Positions 19,692-30,038 of a DNA stretch of 64,000 bases are shown one piece after another. Under the pieces are notes generated by a model that was not told where the DNA came from, made no database searches, and saw nothing but the letters and a program-made list of their open reading frames with translations. Source of the DNA: Methanobacteriaceae archaeon. Its GTDB lineage: Archaea; Methanobacteriota; Methanobacteria; Methanobacteriales; Methanobacteriaceae. The translations under genes were made by a program, and so were the position numbers. The stretch spans positions 62,001-126,000 of the forward strand of contig JAQXTL010000002.1 in the NCBI GenBank assembly GCA_029219465.1, written 5' to 3'. The number at the start of each line of letters is the position of its first letter. The first letter of the stretch is position 1.

Positions 19692-20021
19692 ATGGAAAGA
19701 GCAGTTTGGATAATATTAAATAATAATTTTTCATTGACATTAGACAGTGAAATAAAAGATGGAAAAGTAGTTGACAAAAGATTCTCACCAGGAAATGATT
19801 TATGGACTACAGAGATTCCACAACTACGTTTTAGTGATGAAAATATTCAAAATGATTATAATGACTTTGTTTTTGATATTGTAGCATTATTTGCAGAGCC
19901 TAGTGTTGATAAAGTATTTATTGATGCTAAAATAGGTGAAGAATCAGAATATGTTAATGCTAAAAATCCTTTGGTAATAAGAAAAATAGAAGAATATAGT
20001 GTAGATGAAATTATAGAATAG
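19692..20021 (+). CDS. conserved hypothetical protein, 109 residues
   Basis: A small acidic soluble protein (MERAVWIILNNNFSLTLDSE at the start) without a recognised domain, signal peptide or membrane segment. The start codon lies directly after an AT-rich TATA-like stretch with no Shine-Dalgarno motif, so the mRNA may be leaderless. Its 3' end overlaps the convergent 112-residue gene by 11 bp. Confidence 0.55.
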   Translation: MERAVWIILNNNFSLTLDSEIKDGKVVDKRFSPGNDLWTTEIPQLRFSDENIQNDYNDFVFDIVALFAEPSVDKVFIDAKIGEESEYVNAKNPLVIRKIEEYSVDEIIE

Positions 20022-20349
20022 CATTTGCTTTATTTAATATTTCATCCATATTACTAAATTCCAATGGGTTTCCATCATCATCAACTCTCTCAGTTGTAAT
20101 TAATACATTAGGAGAGGCATATAAATAAGAATATGAAAAGTATGCAACATTGATTAATAAGACCAATCCTACAAACTGAAGAGCTATTATTAAACAAATT
20201 GCATGGATTAAAAGATTACCATACCTTTTTTTACGCATCAATATGTAATTCTTATCTGATTGAGTTACTTTGAACTTTTTTAAAGATAATTCATTGGATA
20301 TTGAATCCATATCCTTGGAATTATCTGCTTTTAAAATAAATAGCTTCAT
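20011..20349 (-). CDS. small membrane protein at end of catabolic operon
   Basis: A 112-residue protein with an N-terminal about 40-residue domain (LFILKADNSKDMDSISNE start), then two closely spaced hydrophobic segments around residues 48-80 and a short soluble tail. I do not recognise the family. It follows the nitroreductase gene by one base, so it is very probably in the same transcript. Confidence 0.55.
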   Translation of the reverse strand: MKLFILKADNSKDMDSISNELSLKKFKVTQSDKNYILMRKKRYGNLLIHAICLIIALQFVGLVLLINVAYFSYSYLYASPNVLITTERVDDDGNPLEFSNMDEILNKANAIL

Positions 20350-20350
20350 T

Positions 20351-20860
20351 TTAATCTTTATATACTACAAATTCATCTAATTCTTTTCTTGGAGTTTCAC
20401 GAGGTTCAGCATTACCATAACCAAGAGGAGTAAATAATACTGCTTCTTCTGTTTCATCCAATCCTAAGAATTTATGTGCTTTATTTTTCTTGAATGCTGC
20501 AATATAACATGTTCCAAGACCAACATCAGTAGCTGCAAGAATAATGTGATCCATTACGATAGTTGCATCAATATCTGCAATGCTTTTTGAATCCCATGGT
20601 CTTACCCAAGCTTCATTTCTTAGTGCAACAACACATAAAACGTATGGTGCTTCTACAAACCATTCTGCAGCATAGATTTCGGATAATTCCTTTTTATATT
20701 TTTTAGTATCAATAACGTAAACTTTAAATGGCTGTTTGTTAACTCCTGTTGGAGCTAATGTAGCTGCTTTTAAAACGTATTCAAGCTTTTCTTTTTCTAC
20801 TTCTTTATCTAAATATCCTCTAACACTGTATCTTTCATTAATTACATCAATAAATTCCAT
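20351..20860 (-). CDS. nitroreductase-family flavoprotein
   Basis: A 169-residue FMN-dependent nitroreductase-like protein. The family signature is at the start (FIDVINERYSVRGYLDKEVE, with the R-S-x-R type FMN phosphate contact), then AATLAPTGVNKQPFKVYVI, and GLGTCYIAAFKK later. Such proteins reduce nitro compounds, quinones or enoate-like substrates with NAD(P)H or reduced F420/ferredoxin partners. It lies 5 bp after the citryl-CoA lyase gene, so it may act in that pathway. The substrate is unknown. Confidence 0.85.
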   Translation of the reverse strand: MEFIDVINERYSVRGYLDKEVEKEKLEYVLKAATLAPTGVNKQPFKVYVIDTKKYKKELSEIYAAEWFVEAPYVLCVVALRNEAWVRPWDSKSIADIDATIVMDHIILAATDVGLGTCYIAAFKKNKAHKFLGLDETEEAVLFTPLGYGNAEPRETPRKELDEFVVYKD

Positions 20861-20865
20861 ATTAT

Positions 20866-21666
20866 CTACCTTTTTTGTTGATAAATTACATCATCTAAAT
20901 CGCAAAATCTTCTAAATTCATCTTCATCCATTTTTTCTTCATGAATGTGTGCAATTATACCTGGGATTCTACCAATAATAAATACTCCTAATCCCAAGTC
21001 TGGTGTGAAACCTAAATCTGACAAAATTGCTGCATTTGCCCCATCTACATTAAGCCTAATTTGCTTTTTTTCATAGATTAAATCTTCAAGAGCTAATGCC
21101 AATTTAATATGTGGTCCAATAAAACCTTCCTTGATAACAATTTCCATCAGTTTATTTGCTCTAGGGTCAATGTTATGGTATCTGTGACCAAAACCAGGTA
21201 CTTTTTTACCTTTTAAGACATAGTCTTGATAAATTTCAATAGCTAAACCAGCAATCTGTTTATTATCAATTTCAGAATCATCAATCAAGTAAGAAGAATT
21301 GATTTTTGACTGATATAACTCCATAGCTTTTTCAATAGCTCCAGCATGTTTATGTCCAAAAGACAATAATGCTCCTGCAACAGCTGAATTAACCGGTGAG
21401 CCTGAAGAAGTAACTATACGGGCTGTTTGAGTACTTGGAGGAGTTACACCATGATCGCAAAATGAAACAAGGACATGATTAAATATTTTACCTTCCATAA
21501 TAGATGGCAATCTTCCTTTTAATAGTAAGAAAACCATATCACTATATCTTATTTTTTCAATTAAATCTCTTTGATTATATCCTCTAGTAACAATTTTATC
21601 AGTTTCAACTCGTGAAATAGCTGTTTTTAAAGAATGTCTATCAATTTTAAAGTTATTATCCTGCAT
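20866..21666 (-). CDS. citryl-CoA lyase (short citrate synthase-like)
   Basis: A 266-residue member of the citrate synthase superfamily, far shorter than true citrate synthase (about 380-430) and matching the citryl-CoA lyase length. The catalytic triad positions are visible: His in SFGHKHAGAIEKA, His in VPGFGHRYHNIDPRA and Asp in LNVDGANAAILSDLGF. Citryl-CoA lyase splits citryl-CoA into acetyl-CoA and oxaloacetate. Here the neighbours suggest a related CoA-ester substrate. No citryl-CoA synthetase gene is nearby. It is in an operon between the fumarase-like gene (63 bp) and the nitroreductase (5 bp). Confidence 0.82.
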   Translation of the reverse strand: MQDNNFKIDRHSLKTAISRVETDKIVTRGYNQRDLIEKIRYSDMVFLLLKGRLPSIMEGKIFNHVLVSFCDHGVTPPSTQTARIVTSSGSPVNSAVAGALLSFGHKHAGAIEKAMELYQSKINSSYLIDDSEIDNKQIAGLAIEIYQDYVLKGKKVPGFGHRYHNIDPRANKLMEIVIKEGFIGPHIKLALALEDLIYEKKQIRLNVDGANAAILSDLGFTPDLGLGVFIIGRIPGIIAHIHEEKMDEDEFRRFCDLDDVIYQQKR

Positions 21667-21729
21667 TTTACGCTACCTATTTTTCTTTATCAATTATATT
21701 AAGATAATTATTAGATTATATATAAACAT

Positions 21730-22602
21730 TTACAATTTTAATGTTGCAACTCTTGGTTCAACAAAACAGGATGGTCTTATTGACACTATCCTTACACCAC
21801 TTGCCCTTTGATTTCCAATATTTAAATAAGTTCCTAAAACTGTTGTTTTTCCACCAAAACCCATAGGTCCAATGTCAGTTTTATTCAATCTATTAGTGAT
21901 TCTTTTTTCATGTTCACTTTGATTATCCAAATTCCCATAGGCAATTGCCTTTAGAAGAAGAGAAGTTGCTTCATAATGTGTTCTACCTATACCAATTGCA
22001 GGAATAGATGGAGTACAACCCAACATTTTTAATGACTCTTCAAGCCATTCACATGCAGTATTGATTACATTATCAAAAGACCTTTTATGGTAAACTCTTA
22101 ATGTTTTTGCCCTTATCTCAGGACCTCCCCCTTCAAGTATAAAATGAATATTTAATGTATCCGGAGAAATGTCCCTTTTATATGAATGTTCATCAAGACC
22201 ATTGTCGATTAATATTGGTGCTGGGCGAAGCATGCCTGGTTTTTCAAATAAACCTTCACTTTGATTGATTCTTTGAACTTCATCACCAATTACAGCCATT
22301 GGTCTTGCAGGAAGATTATTTAATCCTAATTTAATTCCCCGATGAATCTGGTTAATTAATTTTCCTGAAAGCTGTCTATCCTCACCGATTTCTACAATAA
22401 CATGAGGAATACCAGTATCATCACATAATGGAAACTTAATATCCTGGGCTACTTTATAATTTTCTAAAATCTGTTCTAAAGCCCATTTGGCGTTTTCATT
22501 GTCTTCAAGTTCAATAGCTCTTTTTAGTGCATCATATTTATCACAAGAAAGAGTTGTTGATGCATCAATTATTGTTTTTGAAATATCATCCAAAATACTC
22601 AT
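21730..22602 (-). CDS. class I fumarase/tartrate dehydratase-type alpha subunit
   Basis: A 290-residue protein of the class I (Fe-S) hydro-lyase alpha family. It has F-P-L-C-D-D-T-G (cluster Cys region), a GGGPE segment, LGCTPSIPAIGIGRTHYEA and IGPMGFGGKTTVLG. The C-terminus carries SCFVEPR where many fumarases have a C-H-A-A-R-H motif. The start is ATG 22600-22602, four bases after the previous stop, with GAGTGAT as ribosome binding site. The in-frame ATG at 22629 lies inside the upstream gene and lacks one. The usual beta subunit is not adjacent. It would add or remove water from a dicarboxylate-like intermediate. Confidence 0.82.
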   Translation of the reverse strand: MSILDDISKTIIDASTTLSCDKYDALKRAIELEDNENAKWALEQILENYKVAQDIKFPLCDDTGIPHVIVEIGEDRQLSGKLINQIHRGIKLGLNNLPARPMAVIGDEVQRINQSEGLFEKPGMLRPAPILIDNGLDEHSYKRDISPDTLNIHFILEGGGPEIRAKTLRVYHKRSFDNVINTACEWLEESLKMLGCTPSIPAIGIGRTHYEATSLLLKAIAYGNLDNQSEHEKRITNRLNKTDIGPMGFGGKTTVLGTYLNIGNQRASGVRIVSIRPSCFVEPRVATLKL

Positions 22603-22606
22603 AGAA

Positions 22607-23509
22607 TCACTCTGGAGTAGATAAATCATCAGATTTTGCAGGAGATACTACTGCATCAGGATAATATTCATCAATTATTCTTTTAACTAATACAACCTGT
22701 TTTATACGAGCTATTGCTTCTTTTTGTGTTGTATCCCAGTTGTGATTAGCTGCAACAGATCCTCCGGTTTTAAGATAAACAGGAGATGCTACTTTAATGA
22801 ATTGTGGAACTTCATAGTGTCTTATAAATCCTCCAGTGGATTTTGGATTTTCAGTGTGTAAATCAATTGCAAGATTGCATGCATCTCTTATAGCTCCAAT
22901 CATTGGAATTTGCAAATCTCTTACTGGATTAAGTGAATTAAGACCCTGAGATTCAAGTAATTTTGCAGAAGCCGGATTGGAATGACCTGCATGTGCAGAT
23001 AATTTAAAGTGAACATTTTCAGGAAGTTCAACATCTTGTCTCATCTTGTTTAATACAAAAAGTAATCCTTCATCATATAATAATATACCACGAACACCTA
23101 ATCTGCATGCTCTTTTAACGTCCTCGATTGCATAGACTAAATTATCATATCCTCTTAAACGATAGCCTATTCTACTTCCCTCTTTGGTATGAACTGTTGC
23201 AGATGTATCATAGGTTGCTCTTGGACCAACAGATAAAAATAATTCACATCCATAACCAATAGCTAAATTAACCATTTGTTTAATCTCATCATCACTCAAC
23301 ATCATTATTCCTTTGGTTTGAGTGACTCTATGAATAAAAATACCCTGTTTTATTGATTCTTCTAAAAGAGCTTCCATTGTTTTTGGAGATTGGATTCCTG
23401 GAACTTCAAAACGGTATTGTCCACCATCGCCAAAACGTTTATCAGATTTATAATCGCTTGAAACTTCATTTATTCCAATTTTTTTAAGGAATTGTTTTGT
23501 ATTTTCCAT
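22607..23509 (-). CDS. U32 peptidase-like TIM-barrel protein
   Basis: A 300-residue protein with features of the U32 peptidase-like fold: YRFEVPGIQSPKTMEALLEE near the N-terminus, CELFLSVGPRATYDTS, GVRGILLYDEGLLFVLN and FKLSAHAGHSNPASAKLLES. The four-cysteine Fe-S motif of characterised U32 enzymes (RlhA, TrhP, UbiU/V) is not seen. Only isolated Cys residues occur. The start is taken as ATG 23507-23509, one base after the preceding stop. An upstream ATG at 23521 overlaps that gene. A metabolic enzyme role within this operon seems more likely than proteolysis. Confidence 0.6.
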   Translation of the reverse strand: MENTKQFLKKIGINEVSSDYKSDKRFGDGGQYRFEVPGIQSPKTMEALLEESIKQGIFIHRVTQTKGIMMLSDDEIKQMVNLAIGYGCELFLSVGPRATYDTSATVHTKEGSRIGYRLRGYDNLVYAIEDVKRACRLGVRGILLYDEGLLFVLNKMRQDVELPENVHFKLSAHAGHSNPASAKLLESQGLNSLNPVRDLQIPMIGAIRDACNLAIDLHTENPKSTGGFIRHYEVPQFIKVASPVYLKTGGSVAANHNWDTTQKEAIARIKQVVLVKRIIDEYYPDAVVSPAKSDDLSTPE

Positions 23510-23510
23510 A

Positions 23511-24911
23511 TTATCTACCATTCAATTTACCAACAACATATTTCATATTGTATTCTTCAATAGAATCAATAACAGTTAAATTACTGACATCATATTTAGG
23601 ATTTAAACCTTTAAATTTCTCGATTAATTCTTTTAATTGGAAAGGATTTTCAAAGTCTCCTTTTGGAAGTAATGTACTGTTTTGGAATGTTCCATTTCTA
23701 AATACTTCATCTAATCTGATAATGATATTTGAAGGTCTTTTTGACGGATAAAGTTTAGTTAATTCATCATCTGAGATAATAGTCATATTATTTACTATCT
23801 TTTTAATTGCATTTACATCATCAACAGTAGAATAGTTTTCTAAAAGACCAAATTCAACTAACTGATTGATTTTATCAACACTTACTTCACCAACAACAAG
23901 AGAAATTGCAATTGCATAAGGAAGGCTTTGTTTTAATTCTTCTATGTTTTTCGGGTGATAATTATCGTGTTGAGCTGCAACCTCGTATGTTTCCACAAGA
24001 ATATGTTGAATATGAGAATACTCATCACCAATACTTGCTTTAAGCTTTAGGGCAGTATCTATTGAAGAGTGTAAATGTCTACAAAACGGATATTTTTTAA
24101 AGTAAATGTCTCTTACACTTACATTTCCCACATTTCTTAAAGCATCTTCTAGGGAAAATTCTTCTTGTTTATCTAGAACCATTGTTCTTAAAAATCCTTC
24201 ATCCCCATCAAATATGGTTCCACTACCTGTAAAACCATTTCTTGCAAGATATGCAGATAAAATACCATTATATGCTGCTTTTCCAACATGTAAAACTTTA
24301 CCCATAGATCCACCGTGGTCAGATTCCAAAAGACCTGCTGCTTGGGTTCCACATAATCCTAATGTGTTTAAAATCTGATCAACATCAAGTTTTAGCAATT
24401 TAGCTGCAACCGCACCAGCAACAAATGTTCCTATTGTTCCTGTTGTATGAAATCCGTTGTCCCTGTGGTCTGGATTTACAAGTTTTCCAAGTAAAATTCC
24501 AACTTCATAACCTACAATTACACTTTCTAAAAATTCTCTACCAGTTAAATCATGAGCTTCAGAAATTGCAAGAGCTGTTGGAAATATAACTGAACCTAAA
24601 TGAAGTTGAGCACCTCTGTGACCATCATCCAACTCCAAAACATGTGCAGCAACCCCATTTATAAAAGCTGCACTTAAAACATCTGTTTTTAAATTCTTCC
24701 CTATTACAGATGCACTAAAATTTAAATCAATTTTTCCAGAAAATAGCTCATCAATTGTAGTTAAAGCAATATTTGATGCTTCTTCCTCAATTCCCCTATA
24801 TGTAACCCCAAAGAAATCCAAAAAAGCCGCTTTTACCGCAGTCATAGATGCTACGGTTGATTGTTCATAGCGATAGTTGGATATAAATTTAGAAATATTT
24901 TGCAAAAACAT
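23511..24911 (-). CDS. MmgE/PrpD family dehydratase-like protein
   Basis: A 466-residue member of the MmgE/PrpD family (2-methylcitrate dehydratase, iminodisuccinate epimerase and cis-aconitate decarboxylase relatives). The N-terminal helical domain includes AAFINGVAAHVLELDDGHRGA and HRDNGFHTTGTIGTFVAGAVAAKLL. The C-terminal lid starts about residue 270 with YPFCRHLHSSIDTALKLK. These enzymes act on tricarboxylates without a metal cluster. The length is normal. Its position between the membrane proteins and the citryl-CoA lyase suggests dehydration or isomerisation of an imported acid. Confidence 0.88.
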   Translation of the reverse strand: MFLQNISKFISNYRYEQSTVASMTAVKAAFLDFFGVTYRGIEEEASNIALTTIDELFSGKIDLNFSASVIGKNLKTDVLSAAFINGVAAHVLELDDGHRGAQLHLGSVIFPTALAISEAHDLTGREFLESVIVGYEVGILLGKLVNPDHRDNGFHTTGTIGTFVAGAVAAKLLKLDVDQILNTLGLCGTQAAGLLESDHGGSMGKVLHVGKAAYNGILSAYLARNGFTGSGTIFDGDEGFLRTMVLDKQEEFSLEDALRNVGNVSVRDIYFKKYPFCRHLHSSIDTALKLKASIGDEYSHIQHILVETYEVAAQHDNYHPKNIEELKQSLPYAIAISLVVGEVSVDKINQLVEFGLLENYSTVDDVNAIKKIVNNMTIISDDELTKLYPSKRPSNIIIRLDEVFRNGTFQNSTLLPKGDFENPFQLKELIEKFKGLNPKYDVSNLTVIDSIEEYNMKYVVGKLNGR

Positions 24912-25001
24912 AAAACACCTACCATAAATATATGTAAAAAGTAGTATTAAAATAGTTCAGTTATGAATTAATAATAAAAAAAAGATTAAACTCAGATGAG
25001 T

Positions 25002-25487
25002 TTAAACAGGTACACCGGTAAACACTAAAATAGTGTGTGCAACAAGTGCAGAACCTAAATATGTAGATGCAATAACTAGAATTGTGATAATAACTGCTCT
25101 TGGACCTAATGCTTTGAATTCGTCCCAGCTTTTACCCATTCCAATACCCACATATGCTAAGAATACTGTAACAATAGATATTAATTCAACTTGTGAAACG
25201 TAATATAATAAGGTTTCTGAAGTTGGCATTCCAGGAAATGCTAAAACAATACCAATTACACTGATATAAATAATTGAAGAAATGTTGAACGGTAAATATC
25301 TCTCCATCCAAACACCGACCAATGTAATTACTGATAATATTAACATACCAATTAAAGCATCACCAATCGGATGGTCATAACCAATATAATTTCCAATAAC
25401 AGTAATTATTGAAAAGATAGTTAAAAGCAAAACCCAATTTAAAATACCTTGAACTGAAATATTTTCTGATCCATCAATAATATCCAT
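25002..25487 (-). CDS. membrane protein paired with DUF3100 protein
   Basis: A 161-residue protein with about five membrane helices starting near residue 14 (GILNWVLLLTIFSIITVIG). It contains HPIGDALIGMLILSVITLVG and a C-terminal helix pair. It begins directly at the stop of the DUF3100 gene, which strongly suggests a two-subunit membrane complex. It is probably a transporter half. I do not recognise a named family with certainty. Confidence 0.65.
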   Translation of the reverse strand: MDIIDGSENISVQGILNWVLLLTIFSIITVIGNYIGYDHPIGDALIGMLILSVITLVGVWMERYLPFNISSIIYISVIGIVLAFPGMPTSETLLYYVSQVELISIVTVFLAYVGIGMGKSWDEFKALGPRAVIITILVIASTYLGSALVAHTILVFTGVPV

Positions 25488-26390
25488 CTATTCATCACCC
25501 TCTTTCTTTTCTTCAACAATAGGGTCTCTTCCAATTCTAGGTTCTAAAAAGGAATATAATTTTTCTGTTAATGGTATTGCTACAAACATAACAATATAGA
25601 TACCAACAGAGAAAGACAATAAATTACTGAATCCAGCAAATGCTTCAATAGGTGTTGCTAAATTCGGGAAAGCTGCAATAGTCGGAGCGAGTGAAGCAGC
25701 ATTCATACTTGCACTACCTACACCGGAAGCCATAGCAAATGCATATGGGTGTAGAGGCAATACTGAAACACAGATACTGGTAAGGAAACTAATAAACACA
25801 GTTCCAATAATTGTTCCAACAATGAAGAGTGCAAAAATACCTCTTGATTCTGGAGAGTTAAAACCATATTTGTCAACAATAACTGCAACTTCAGGTTCAC
25901 GACCAATAGATGAAGTCATACCAATACATTCACGTTTAAATCCAAGCAATAATGCAGCAGGAAGAGCTATTAAAATTGTAGCTAAGTGTCCTAATTCTTG
26001 TAACATTAAAGCAGGACCCATTTCAAAAATCAAATGAATGGATTGACCACTGGAAACTGCTAATTTTGCAATTAACACTCCAATAAACAACATCATTGCC
26101 CCTTCAGCAACTCTGGATTGTTTTCTTTGAATCCAAGTAATTGGTTTTGCCAAATAAAATATTAAACCTAAAACCATTGTATAAAGCAAAGGCATAACTA
26201 AAATTTCTACGCCTTTTGCAAGGGGAATTTTAATTGAACCAATAAATTCAGCCACTATAACTAAAACAAGTACTGTAATATGTAATCCATAATCCTTCCA
26301 CGGATTCTTTTTCAAAATACGTCTATCGGTTTTATCACGATAGATATGTTGAACTTTCGTATCACTATTCTTTTTTGATATTTTTGACAA
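25488..26390 (-). CDS. DUF3100 membrane protein, putative transporter
   Basis: A 300-residue protein with a basic N-terminus of about 32 residues and eight or nine membrane helices. It contains the segment AFAMASGVGSASMNAASLAPTIAA, split here as ASGVGSASM followed by NAASLAPTIA, which I associate with the DUF3100 family. Small-residue-rich stretches of this kind are common in secondary transporters. It is the first gene of the operon, with TATA-like TTATATATAA about 50 bp upstream. Import of an organic acid is a reasonable inference from the downstream enzymes but is not shown. Confidence 0.7.
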   Translation of the reverse strand: MSKISKKNSDTKVQHIYRDKTDRRILKKNPWKDYGLHITVLVLVIVAEFIGSIKIPLAKGVEILVMPLLYTMVLGLIFYLAKPITWIQRKQSRVAEGAMMLFIGVLIAKLAVSSGQSIHLIFEMGPALMLQELGHLATILIALPAALLLGFKRECIGMTSSIGREPEVAVIVDKYGFNSPESRGIFALFIVGTIIGTVFISFLTSICVSVLPLHPYAFAMASGVGSASMNAASLAPTIAAFPNLATPIEAFAGFSNLLSFSVGIYIVMFVAIPLTEKLYSFLEPRIGRDPIVEEKKEGDE

Positions 26391-28860: not shown

Positions 28861-29247
28861 ATGGAAGATTTAAAAATTACAGGTATGGAAAACTATCCAA
28901 TTAAATGGGTTTGTAACTTCAAAGGACAAAAAGCAATCGGAATTTGTGGAAAAACACAAAAAATAGCTATGTTTGCATCAGATGAAAGAGTTTCAAAACT
29001 ATTAGACGACATTGTAATCGGAACTGATGAAGCACAGGAAGGATACGGTTGTGAAGAAAAAAGTAGATGCTGTAATTTTGATTGTGAACTTTGTGAAATT
29101 TCACCAAGACAATACTTACAAATTACAGGTAAAAAACCATCCAATAAAAATATAAAAGATTTAATTAATGGTTTAGCAGATTTAAACAAATCCCTTGAAG
29201 AAGAAAAACTTGTTCCTTTCAAAGAATATGAAATTGTTGAATTTTAA
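28861..29247 (+). CDS. cysteine-rich hypothetical protein, 128 residues
   Basis: A small protein with a tight group of cysteines at residues about 63-77 (C-E-E-K-S-R-C-C-N-F-D-C-E-L-C) plus two earlier ones, suggesting a metal or Fe-S site. The rest is soluble, with a helical C-terminus rich in Asn, Lys and Leu. It starts 9 bp after the stop of the HTH regulator with a GTGAT ribosome binding motif, so the two are probably one transcript. I do not recognise a family. Confidence 0.6.
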   Translation: MEDLKITGMENYPIKWVCNFKGQKAIGICGKTQKIAMFASDERVSKLLDDIVIGTDEAQEGYGCEEKSRCCNFDCELCEISPRQYLQITGKKPSNKNIKDLINGLADLNKSLEEEKLVPFKEYEIVEF

Positions 29248-30038
29248 TATTCTTTTAAAAGAGTAAAGTCTTCACGTGCTTCTTCAACTTTAGCCACACC
29301 AATTGATATTAAATCAACATAATCTATATTTTTATAAAATTCAAATGCTTCTTTAGGTTTTAAAACACCACATGCCATAATCCTAGAAGCTATTACTTTT
29401 TTATTTAAACTAGTGAGTTTTTCTTTGAATTCCTCTCTTTGAGAAGCATTAAATGCAGTAATATCCATCATATATGAAATTGCATTAAATGGAACCATAT
29501 AAAAATCAAATAAATTCATATCAAGATTTTCTGGAATTAAAGTTGTTGTTTTTAGAGGAAATGCAGTAATTAATCCTGAAAGAGCACCAGTATCATTAAT
29601 ACTTGATAAAATTTTTGAGGTTAATCTCCAGTCATATGCATCAACAATAAATTCATCAACCAACATCAAAGGACAATCATATTTACTGAATAATTCAATA
29701 TCCTCATCCCAGTCTGCCTCTTTTGCAATTTCGTAATTTGGATTTAAATAATCAATATCAGTTTTACCAATAGTAGCAATTACCTGCATTTCACAGCCCT
29801 GAGAACATGCAAGATCATATCCTTCAAGTAATTTTTCATCATTAAAAAGGTTAATTGCTCTTACGCCCTGATTGTATGACTCCACAATAACATCTGCAAT
29901 AGCCTGTGGATTTTCATGTAAATCCCTTTCATATAACATGGATCTGTGACCTAAAAAAGGCTCAGCAACAAATGGAGAAAATCCTAAGATTGTTTTTGGA
30001 ATTGTTTTTTCTTTATATGTTAAATCATCAAAAAACAT
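29244..30038 (-). CDS. conserved hypothetical protein, TIM-barrel-like
   Basis: A 264-residue soluble protein with alternating hydrophobic strands and helices (QGVRAINLFNDEKLLEGYDLA; MQVIATIGKTDIDYLNPNYE; CPLMLVDEFIVDAY; KKVIASRIMACGVLKPKEA; VDLISIGVAKVEEA), a pattern consistent with an eight-fold barrel such as an aldo-keto reductase-like or metabolic isomerase fold. No catalytic signature could be assigned. It overlaps the convergent cysteine-rich gene by 4 bp and lies 9 bp after the YbjQ-type gene, so it is probably cotranscribed with that one. Confidence 0.55.
   Translation of the reverse strand: MFFDDLTYKEKTIPKTILGFSPFVAEPFLGHRSMLYERDLHENPQAIADVIVESYNQGVRAINLFNDEKLLEGYDLACSQGCEMQVIATIGKTDIDYLNPNYEIAKEADWDEDIELFSKYDCPLMLVDEFIVDAYDWRLTSKILSSINDTGALSGLITAFPLKTTTLIPENLDMNLFDFYMVPFNAISYMMDITAFNASQREEFKEKLTSLNKKVIASRIMACGVLKPKEAFEFYKNIDYVDLISIGVAKVEEAREDFTLLKEY

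Follow-up and report, generated by a model that had tools for sequence, protein, structure and literature searches.

A conserved set of five enzyme genes in Methanobacteria is very probably one biosynthetic pathway and may make the terminal acid of methanofuran

A stretch of 64,000 nucleotides (bases 62001–126000 of contig C2 in a 1.66-Mb genome whose relatives are Methanobrevibacter; hereafter the window) carries at positions 20351–26390, on the minus strand, a run of seven open reading frames (ORFs) for which uptake and cleavage of a tricarboxylate-like acid had been proposed from the letters alone (the original prediction). Four adjacent genes of this run, encoding a MmgE/PrpD-family dehydratase (PrpD), a U32-like protein, a second fumarase-type alpha subunit (FumA2) and a citryl-CoA-lyase-type enzyme (CCL), together with a gene outside the window for a divergent fumarase-type beta subunit (FumB2), very probably constitute one anabolic route in Methanobacteria. 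With about even chances this route makes the tetracarboxylic end-group of methanofuran, the coenzyme on which the C1 unit is first carried when methanogens reduce CO2. The four genes in the window are:

23511–24911, minus strand: core gene 1, MmgE/PrpD-family dehydratase, 466 amino acids (PF03972/PF19305)
22607–23521, minus strand: core gene 2, U32-like protein, a TIM barrel lacking iron-sulphur cysteines, 304 amino acids (sub-threshold PF01136)
21730–22629, minus strand: core gene 3, FumA2, class I [4Fe-4S] hydro-lyase alpha subunit, a fumarase alpha paralogue, 299 amino acids (PF05681)
20866–21666, minus strand: core gene 4, CCL, predicted citryl-CoA lyase or citrate-synthase-like enzyme, 266 amino acids (NF004866)

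The genes for PrpD, the U32-like protein, FumA2 and CCL were found in this order and on one strand in all 64 loci carrying all four, an arrangement far above chance expectation. Only these four form the functional core; the two DUF3100 membrane protein ORFs and the nitroreductase gene of the same run are accessory, so that of the unit originally proposed the four enzymes stand and the membrane proteins fall outside. The U32-like gene occurred in all 67 genomes of the window's genus, in 127 of the 150 genomes of the order and in 130 of the 152 of the phylum, among them a 1.2-Mb genome of the deepest family, and the core was kept in genomes of 1.2–1.5 Mb. Negatives listed for this gene were three incomplete genomes (67–72% complete) of other genera and one genus, g3, in which the lone match was an 18-bit partial one. 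Family profiling was performed on a sample of 25 genomes (14 non-g3 and 11 g3): CCL (PF00285), PrpD (PF03972) and a second FumA (PF05681) were detected in 14/14 of the former and were missing from 11/11 of the latter, which retain one FumA. Genus g3 was identified as Methanosphaera because MoaC was missing from all 11 of its genomes (present in 15/15 others) and MtaB was present in all 11 (and in only two others). Methanosphaera lacks most molybdopterin cofactor genes for formylmethanofuran dehydrogenase and does not grow on CO2 and H2 (PMC6120340). Loss of the core block was seen in this genus only. Since the core is near-universal, small genomes included, and the membrane proteins are accessory, it looks anabolic and not like an uptake-and-cleavage set, and both its distribution and its loss as a block fit a lineage-wide biosynthetic role. 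The original view of the set as foreign to methanogen metabolism is not supported, given its near-universal presence in the class, down to very small genomes.

The fifth gene, fumB2, is a divergent second copy of fumarase beta (PF05683) at G000:C4:202121–202591, and was found in 15/15 core-bearing genomes and in 0/11 Methanosphaera genomes. In phylogenetic trees FumB2 stood apart from fumarase beta and joined the beta subunit of gene clusters from Bacteroidales (support 100/99), and FumA2 stood apart from fumarase alpha and joined the FumA of these clusters (100/100; one long-branch row was not used). FumA2 scored 174.7 bits with PF05681 and 110.3 bits with TIGR00722 (cut-off 100.65), and the three cluster cysteines C69, C205 and C288 were kept; TIGR00722, the three cysteines and the co-occurring FumB2 place it among the wider class I [4Fe-4S] hydro-lyases. 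It did not reach the fumarase equivalog NF004885 (119.3 bits, cut-off 276), which the other FumA copy of the genome passed with 385.8 bits. The pair therefore resembles two-subunit class I fumarase and L-tartrate dehydratase in having alpha and beta subunits and three cluster cysteines, and differs in forming clades separate from the cell's own fumarase (99–100% support) and in scoring below the equivalog cut-off. FumA2 was rejected as the cell's own fumarase, since separate FumA1 and FumB1 with fumarase-type scores exist, and the discovery of FumB2 makes it unlikely that FumA2 acts without a beta subunit. Most likely, to judge from the sequences, FumA2 and FumB2 make up a separate, dedicated hydro-lyase whose two genes lie at different loci in Methanobacteria. 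In Methanobrevibacter, the window's genus, fumB2 has moved and lies beside 2-oxoglutarate:ferredoxin oxidoreductase genes; one Methanobrevibacter genome (G066) has two copies (L151:8256–8846 and L152:7896–8387).

Rumen and gut Bacteroidales carry a U32-like protein 61–64% identical to the methanogen one. U32-like, PrpD and FumA genes were seen in glycan-synthesis-type loci L080, L082, L084 and L085, and FumB was confirmed in L080 and L085, where all four stand together. Identity of 61–62% between the U32-like proteins of the methanogens and of the glycan loci suggests gene transfer between gut residents. The Bacteroidales set differs from the methanogen core in having a PF15617 C–C bond lyase in place of CCL, along with an aldo/keto reductase and a phosphonopyruvate-decarboxylase-type enzyme in both L080 and L085 and ATP-grasp ligases in L080. 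These clusters are an independent case and support the U32-like protein, PrpD, FumA2 and FumB2 as members of one pathway, and point to synthesis of an acid that would later be ligated to something.

In Methanothermobacter, methanofuran a terminates in 1,3,4,6-hexanetetracarboxylic acid (HTCA; 4,5-dicarboxyoctanedioic acid), the M. smithii form has a 2-hydroxy group on HTCA, and the methanofurans of other methanogen orders have glutamate-based tails. A literature search on HTCA biosynthesis returned nothing relevant. MfnA–MfnF build the methanofuran core with the first glutamate, and no enzymes have yet been assigned to the addition of the terminal residues in methanofuran a/c, the forms ascribed to the principal methanogens of gut and rumen (PMC8141765). 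Two features connect the present genes with this pathway, of which they would supply the terminal acid: fumB2 adjoins mfnA, and the route was lost where the formylmethanofuran route was lost. In ten genomes from four families (G075, G081, G069, G071, G151, G092, G100, G114, G087 and G107), fumB2 came directly after mfnA in the same orientation. The overlap was 4 bp in two genomes, and three more that were read had a gap of 18 to 492 bp; mfnA was identified with TIGR03812 at 552–572 bits in the five genomes tested (cut-off 299). The gene run was rpl10e–ppsA–mfnA–fumB2 in four families (L146, L147, L148, L149 and L155), and in the Methanosphaera genome G083 rpl10e–ppsA–mfnA was intact and fumB2 was not there. 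No PrpD was found in M. jannaschii and M. acetivorans, the only two control methanogens searched, which is in line with the glutamate-based tails that we take both species to have.

The families, catalytic and cluster residues, gene linkage and co-loss were observed directly; from here on we infer the direction, the substrates, the order of steps and the product. An operon with a citrate-synthase-type enzyme, a PrpD-type enzyme and an Fe–S hydro-lyase is what an HTCA-like molecule would call for. The product would be HTCA, or in Methanobrevibacter its 2-hydroxy form, capping the gamma-glutamyl tail of methanofuran a/c. CCL would act as a synthase that condenses an acyl-CoA with a 2-oxo acid, probably 2-oxoglutarate, PrpD would dehydrate the resulting tertiary alcohol, FumA2B2 would perform a rehydration or isomerization, and the U32-like barrel may catalyse a further aldol-type or isomerase step. 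In one possible, balanced scheme, a C5 acyl-CoA and 2-oxoglutarate would be condensed by CCL to a hydroxylated C10 tetracarboxylate, which PrpD would dehydrate and a further reductase saturate. In a second, the U32-like barrel would add a pyruvate-derived C3 unit to a homoaconitate-type C7 acid, with the hydroxyl at position 2. Both schemes leave some step without an enzyme.

Several points weigh against the assignment to methanofuran. The loss in Methanosphaera is one evolutionary event, and the 11 genomes are not 11 independent tests. This genus retains mfnA and mfnB and therefore still makes the methanofuran core, so the end-group idea requires it to use a different tail. The mfnA operon also includes the unrelated rpl10e and ppsA, for which reason the adjacency of fumB2 is only suggestive; fumB2 does not adjoin mfnA in Methanobrevibacter, and in the loci read the PrpD, U32-like, FumA2 and CCL genes were not linked to any mfn gene. 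The analysis turned up neither a reductase nor a ligase for the acid. The Bacteroidales clusters, with a C–C lyase replacing CCL, presumably make a product other than methanofuran, and the enzyme set is thus not exclusive to it. The same five genes could accordingly be one anabolic pathway to a different product, namely another polycarboxylic acid or a chain-elongated 2-oxo acid that Methanosphaera obtains or forgoes; the pathway-level evidence would fit any product dispensable in this genus, and the company of ppsA and rpl10e, or of 2-oxoglutarate oxidoreductase genes in Methanobrevibacter, can be read in its favour. The loss coincides, however, with that of the formylmethanofuran route, and to our knowledge there is no other unusual polycarboxylate without assigned enzymes in the lineage; such a product is a real possibility, if an unlikely one. 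A wider reading, in which the five genes make the methanofuran a/c end-group, the U32-like protein represents a new cysteine-free C–C-bond or isomerase family and rumen Bacteroidales reuse the set for polycarboxylic decoration of glycans, is put forward tentatively as falling somewhat short of even chances. If the methanofuran assignment is true, it supplies five candidate genes at once for the end-piece of methanofuran a/c, the 'citryl-CoA lyase', 'fumarase' and 'U32 peptidase' of nearly every Methanobacteria genome would be re-annotated, Methanosphaera is predicted to carry a different methanofuran tail and the enzymes would deserve attention in efforts to mitigate methane. Should only the claim of a single pathway hold, what has been delineated is a core pathway, conserved and unexplained, of an entire archaeal class, with a newly found fifth subunit. 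Targeted gene deletion is available in Methanothermobacter thermautotrophicus Delta-H (PMC10370314), which makes the assignment accessible to genetics.

The family assignments of the core enzymes bear on a second alternative. Profile searches agreed with the original labels for the nitroreductase, citryl-CoA-lyase-type, fumarase-alpha-type and MmgE/PrpD proteins, and the enzymes belong to types that form or break C–C bonds beside carboxylates and dehydrate or rehydrate such acids, which supports that part of the original prediction. PrpD matched PF03972 and PF19305, fell below all cut-offs of the 2-methylcitrate dehydratase equivalog models (48.3 versus 575, 43.3 versus 950 and 39.1 versus 458 bits) and had as its closest solved relatives IDS-epimerase and cis-aconitate-decarboxylase-type proteins. 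CCL passed two subfamily models (NF004866, 409.6 versus 245 bits; NF004869, 232.8 versus 212 bits) and did not reach the cut-offs of the equivalog models, including those for methylcitrate. It matched the citryl-CoA lyase 6hxp at 9.4e-48 and shares with it the length, the fold family and the catalytic His/His/Asp (H of HAGA, H of GHRYH and D of NVDG, conserved in 6hxp and relatives); DPR and GRxPG are also conserved among relatives, and CCL keeps the residues with which citryl-CoA lyase binds the keto acid. It differs from 6hxp in a clearly diverged sequence and in having no citryl-CoA synthetase partner in the cluster, and is a predicted citryl-CoA lyase or citrate-synthase-like enzyme. In Methanothermobacter a second, near-identical CCL lies outside the operon beside phosphate-transport-like genes (L165:1015–1932; G075:C1:259514–260431), and other deep lineages likewise carry a second CCL-type gene; the Methanothermobacter copy was set aside as a clue, a near-identical duplicate being uninformative.

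The label 'U32-like' holds for the fold of the second core protein, a TIM barrel related to U32, and not for its score with PF01136 (peptidase U32; 17.8 bits, gathering cut-off 22.4) or its cysteines: no column in an alignment of 38 rows had cysteine in at least half of the rows, and [4Fe-4S]-cluster cysteines are typical of U32 proteins of the RlhA/TrhP/UbiU type. A function as U32 peptidase or hydroxylase was rejected on these two tests. The structure model was confident (predicted local distance difference test, pLDDT, 90.5), and the nearest folds, at template modelling (TM) scores of about 0.45–0.5, were class II aldolases first, the U32 protein Mk0906 (5d88) at rank 8, and methylisocitrate lyase. 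Homologues with 38–42% identity in Acidobacteria, Bacillus, Actinobacteria and Thermomicrobium had sugar-acid-type neighbours (aldehyde dehydrogenase, dehydratase-like and FAH-like proteins), and transfer of function from these neighbours was dropped as too distant. In a Desulfurococcaceae archaeon a 49% identical gene lies in a cluster (L088:7932–16909) whose translations, judged by eye, resemble TRAP transporter and CoA-transferase subunits, a nitroreductase and a dehydrogenase of the LDH2 type.

A module like the methylcitrate cycle, interconverting an acyl-CoA and a 2-oxo acid by synthase, PrpD, hydratase and TIM-barrel lyase, would match PrpC, PrpD, aconitase and PrpB one to one with its citrate-synthase-type, PrpD-family, Fe–S hydro-lyase and TIM-barrel members, with the U32-like protein as PrpB, and methylisocitrate lyase is indeed among the structural neighbours of the latter. 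The match is nevertheless improbable as an explanation: class II aldolases come out ahead of methylisocitrate lyase and the TM scores reach only about 0.45, PrpD and CCL miss the methylcitrate equivalogs, CCL is short, FumA2B2 stands in for aconitase, the U32-like protein is not PrpB, and in an autotroph there is no obvious propionyl-CoA that could be oxidised.

The other features of the region are:

25488–26390, minus strand: DUF3100 membrane protein, first half, TTG start (PF11299, 281 bits); accessory
25002–25487, minus strand: DUF3100 partner, second half, no Pfam match, joined with the first half into one protein in L103, L061, L063 and others; accessory
20351–20860, minus strand: nitroreductase-family flavoprotein, 169 amino acids (PF00881); accessory
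20011–20349, minus strand: small conserved ORF, 112 amino acids, an eighth ORF 1 bp 3′ of the nitroreductase gene

Among the 64 core loci, DUF3100 genes were nearby in 43 and the nitroreductase gene in 56, the latter adjoining the core in gut genera only. Neither was found beside the core in loci of the Methanothermobacter, Methanobacterium and Methanothermus types, the genus names being our attribution. Elsewhere, DUF3100 genes stood beside unrelated genes, for example that of an M20 peptidase, or alone with the partner. The two halves are one fused protein in several Methanobrevibacter relatives, so that in the originally named 'DUF3100 pair' the first ORF bears out the label and the pair is one split protein. 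Because DUF3100 is missing from core loci of deep lineages and is found elsewhere, it is a separate transport unit that settled beside the core and not a component of it; in gut genera this putative transporter is accessory, as is the nitroreductase. The structure model of DUF3100, an integral membrane protein, weakly resembles the citrate symporter CitS and at pLDDT 64 is too poor to give more than a hint of such a transporter. Uptake via DUF3100 of a tricarboxylate that is then dehydrated, rehydrated and cleaved into a keto acid and a CoA thioester, as originally proposed, would draw on this resemblance and on the 43 of 64 adjoining loci, and is very improbable, since deep lineages keep all four enzymes with DUF3100 not at the core locus, DUF3100 travels alone or with the M20 peptidase elsewhere, the core is retained in autotroph lineages and in genomes of 1.2–1.5 Mb, and the cluster is without a CoA-activating enzyme. 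The window carries a single split copy of DUF3100, and the pair is tandemly duplicated in many Methanobrevibacter (L021–L057, for example L021:3605–4967 and L021:5134–6501).

All seven ORFs were located on the minus strand at 20351–26390. The intergenic gaps, in transcription order, were 0, 90, −11, −23, 63 and 5 bp; four of six are short or overlapping. This pattern is consistent with a single transcript, and the 90-bp gap 5′ of the PrpD gene could hold a separate promoter. The 112-amino-acid ORF gave no match in family searches and follows the nitroreductase gene in most loci of the window's genus. At 29244–30038 of the window, on the minus strand and a few genes past TiaS and an XRE regulator, a conserved protein of 264 amino acids without a Pfam family is encoded, which was found near the core across the order.

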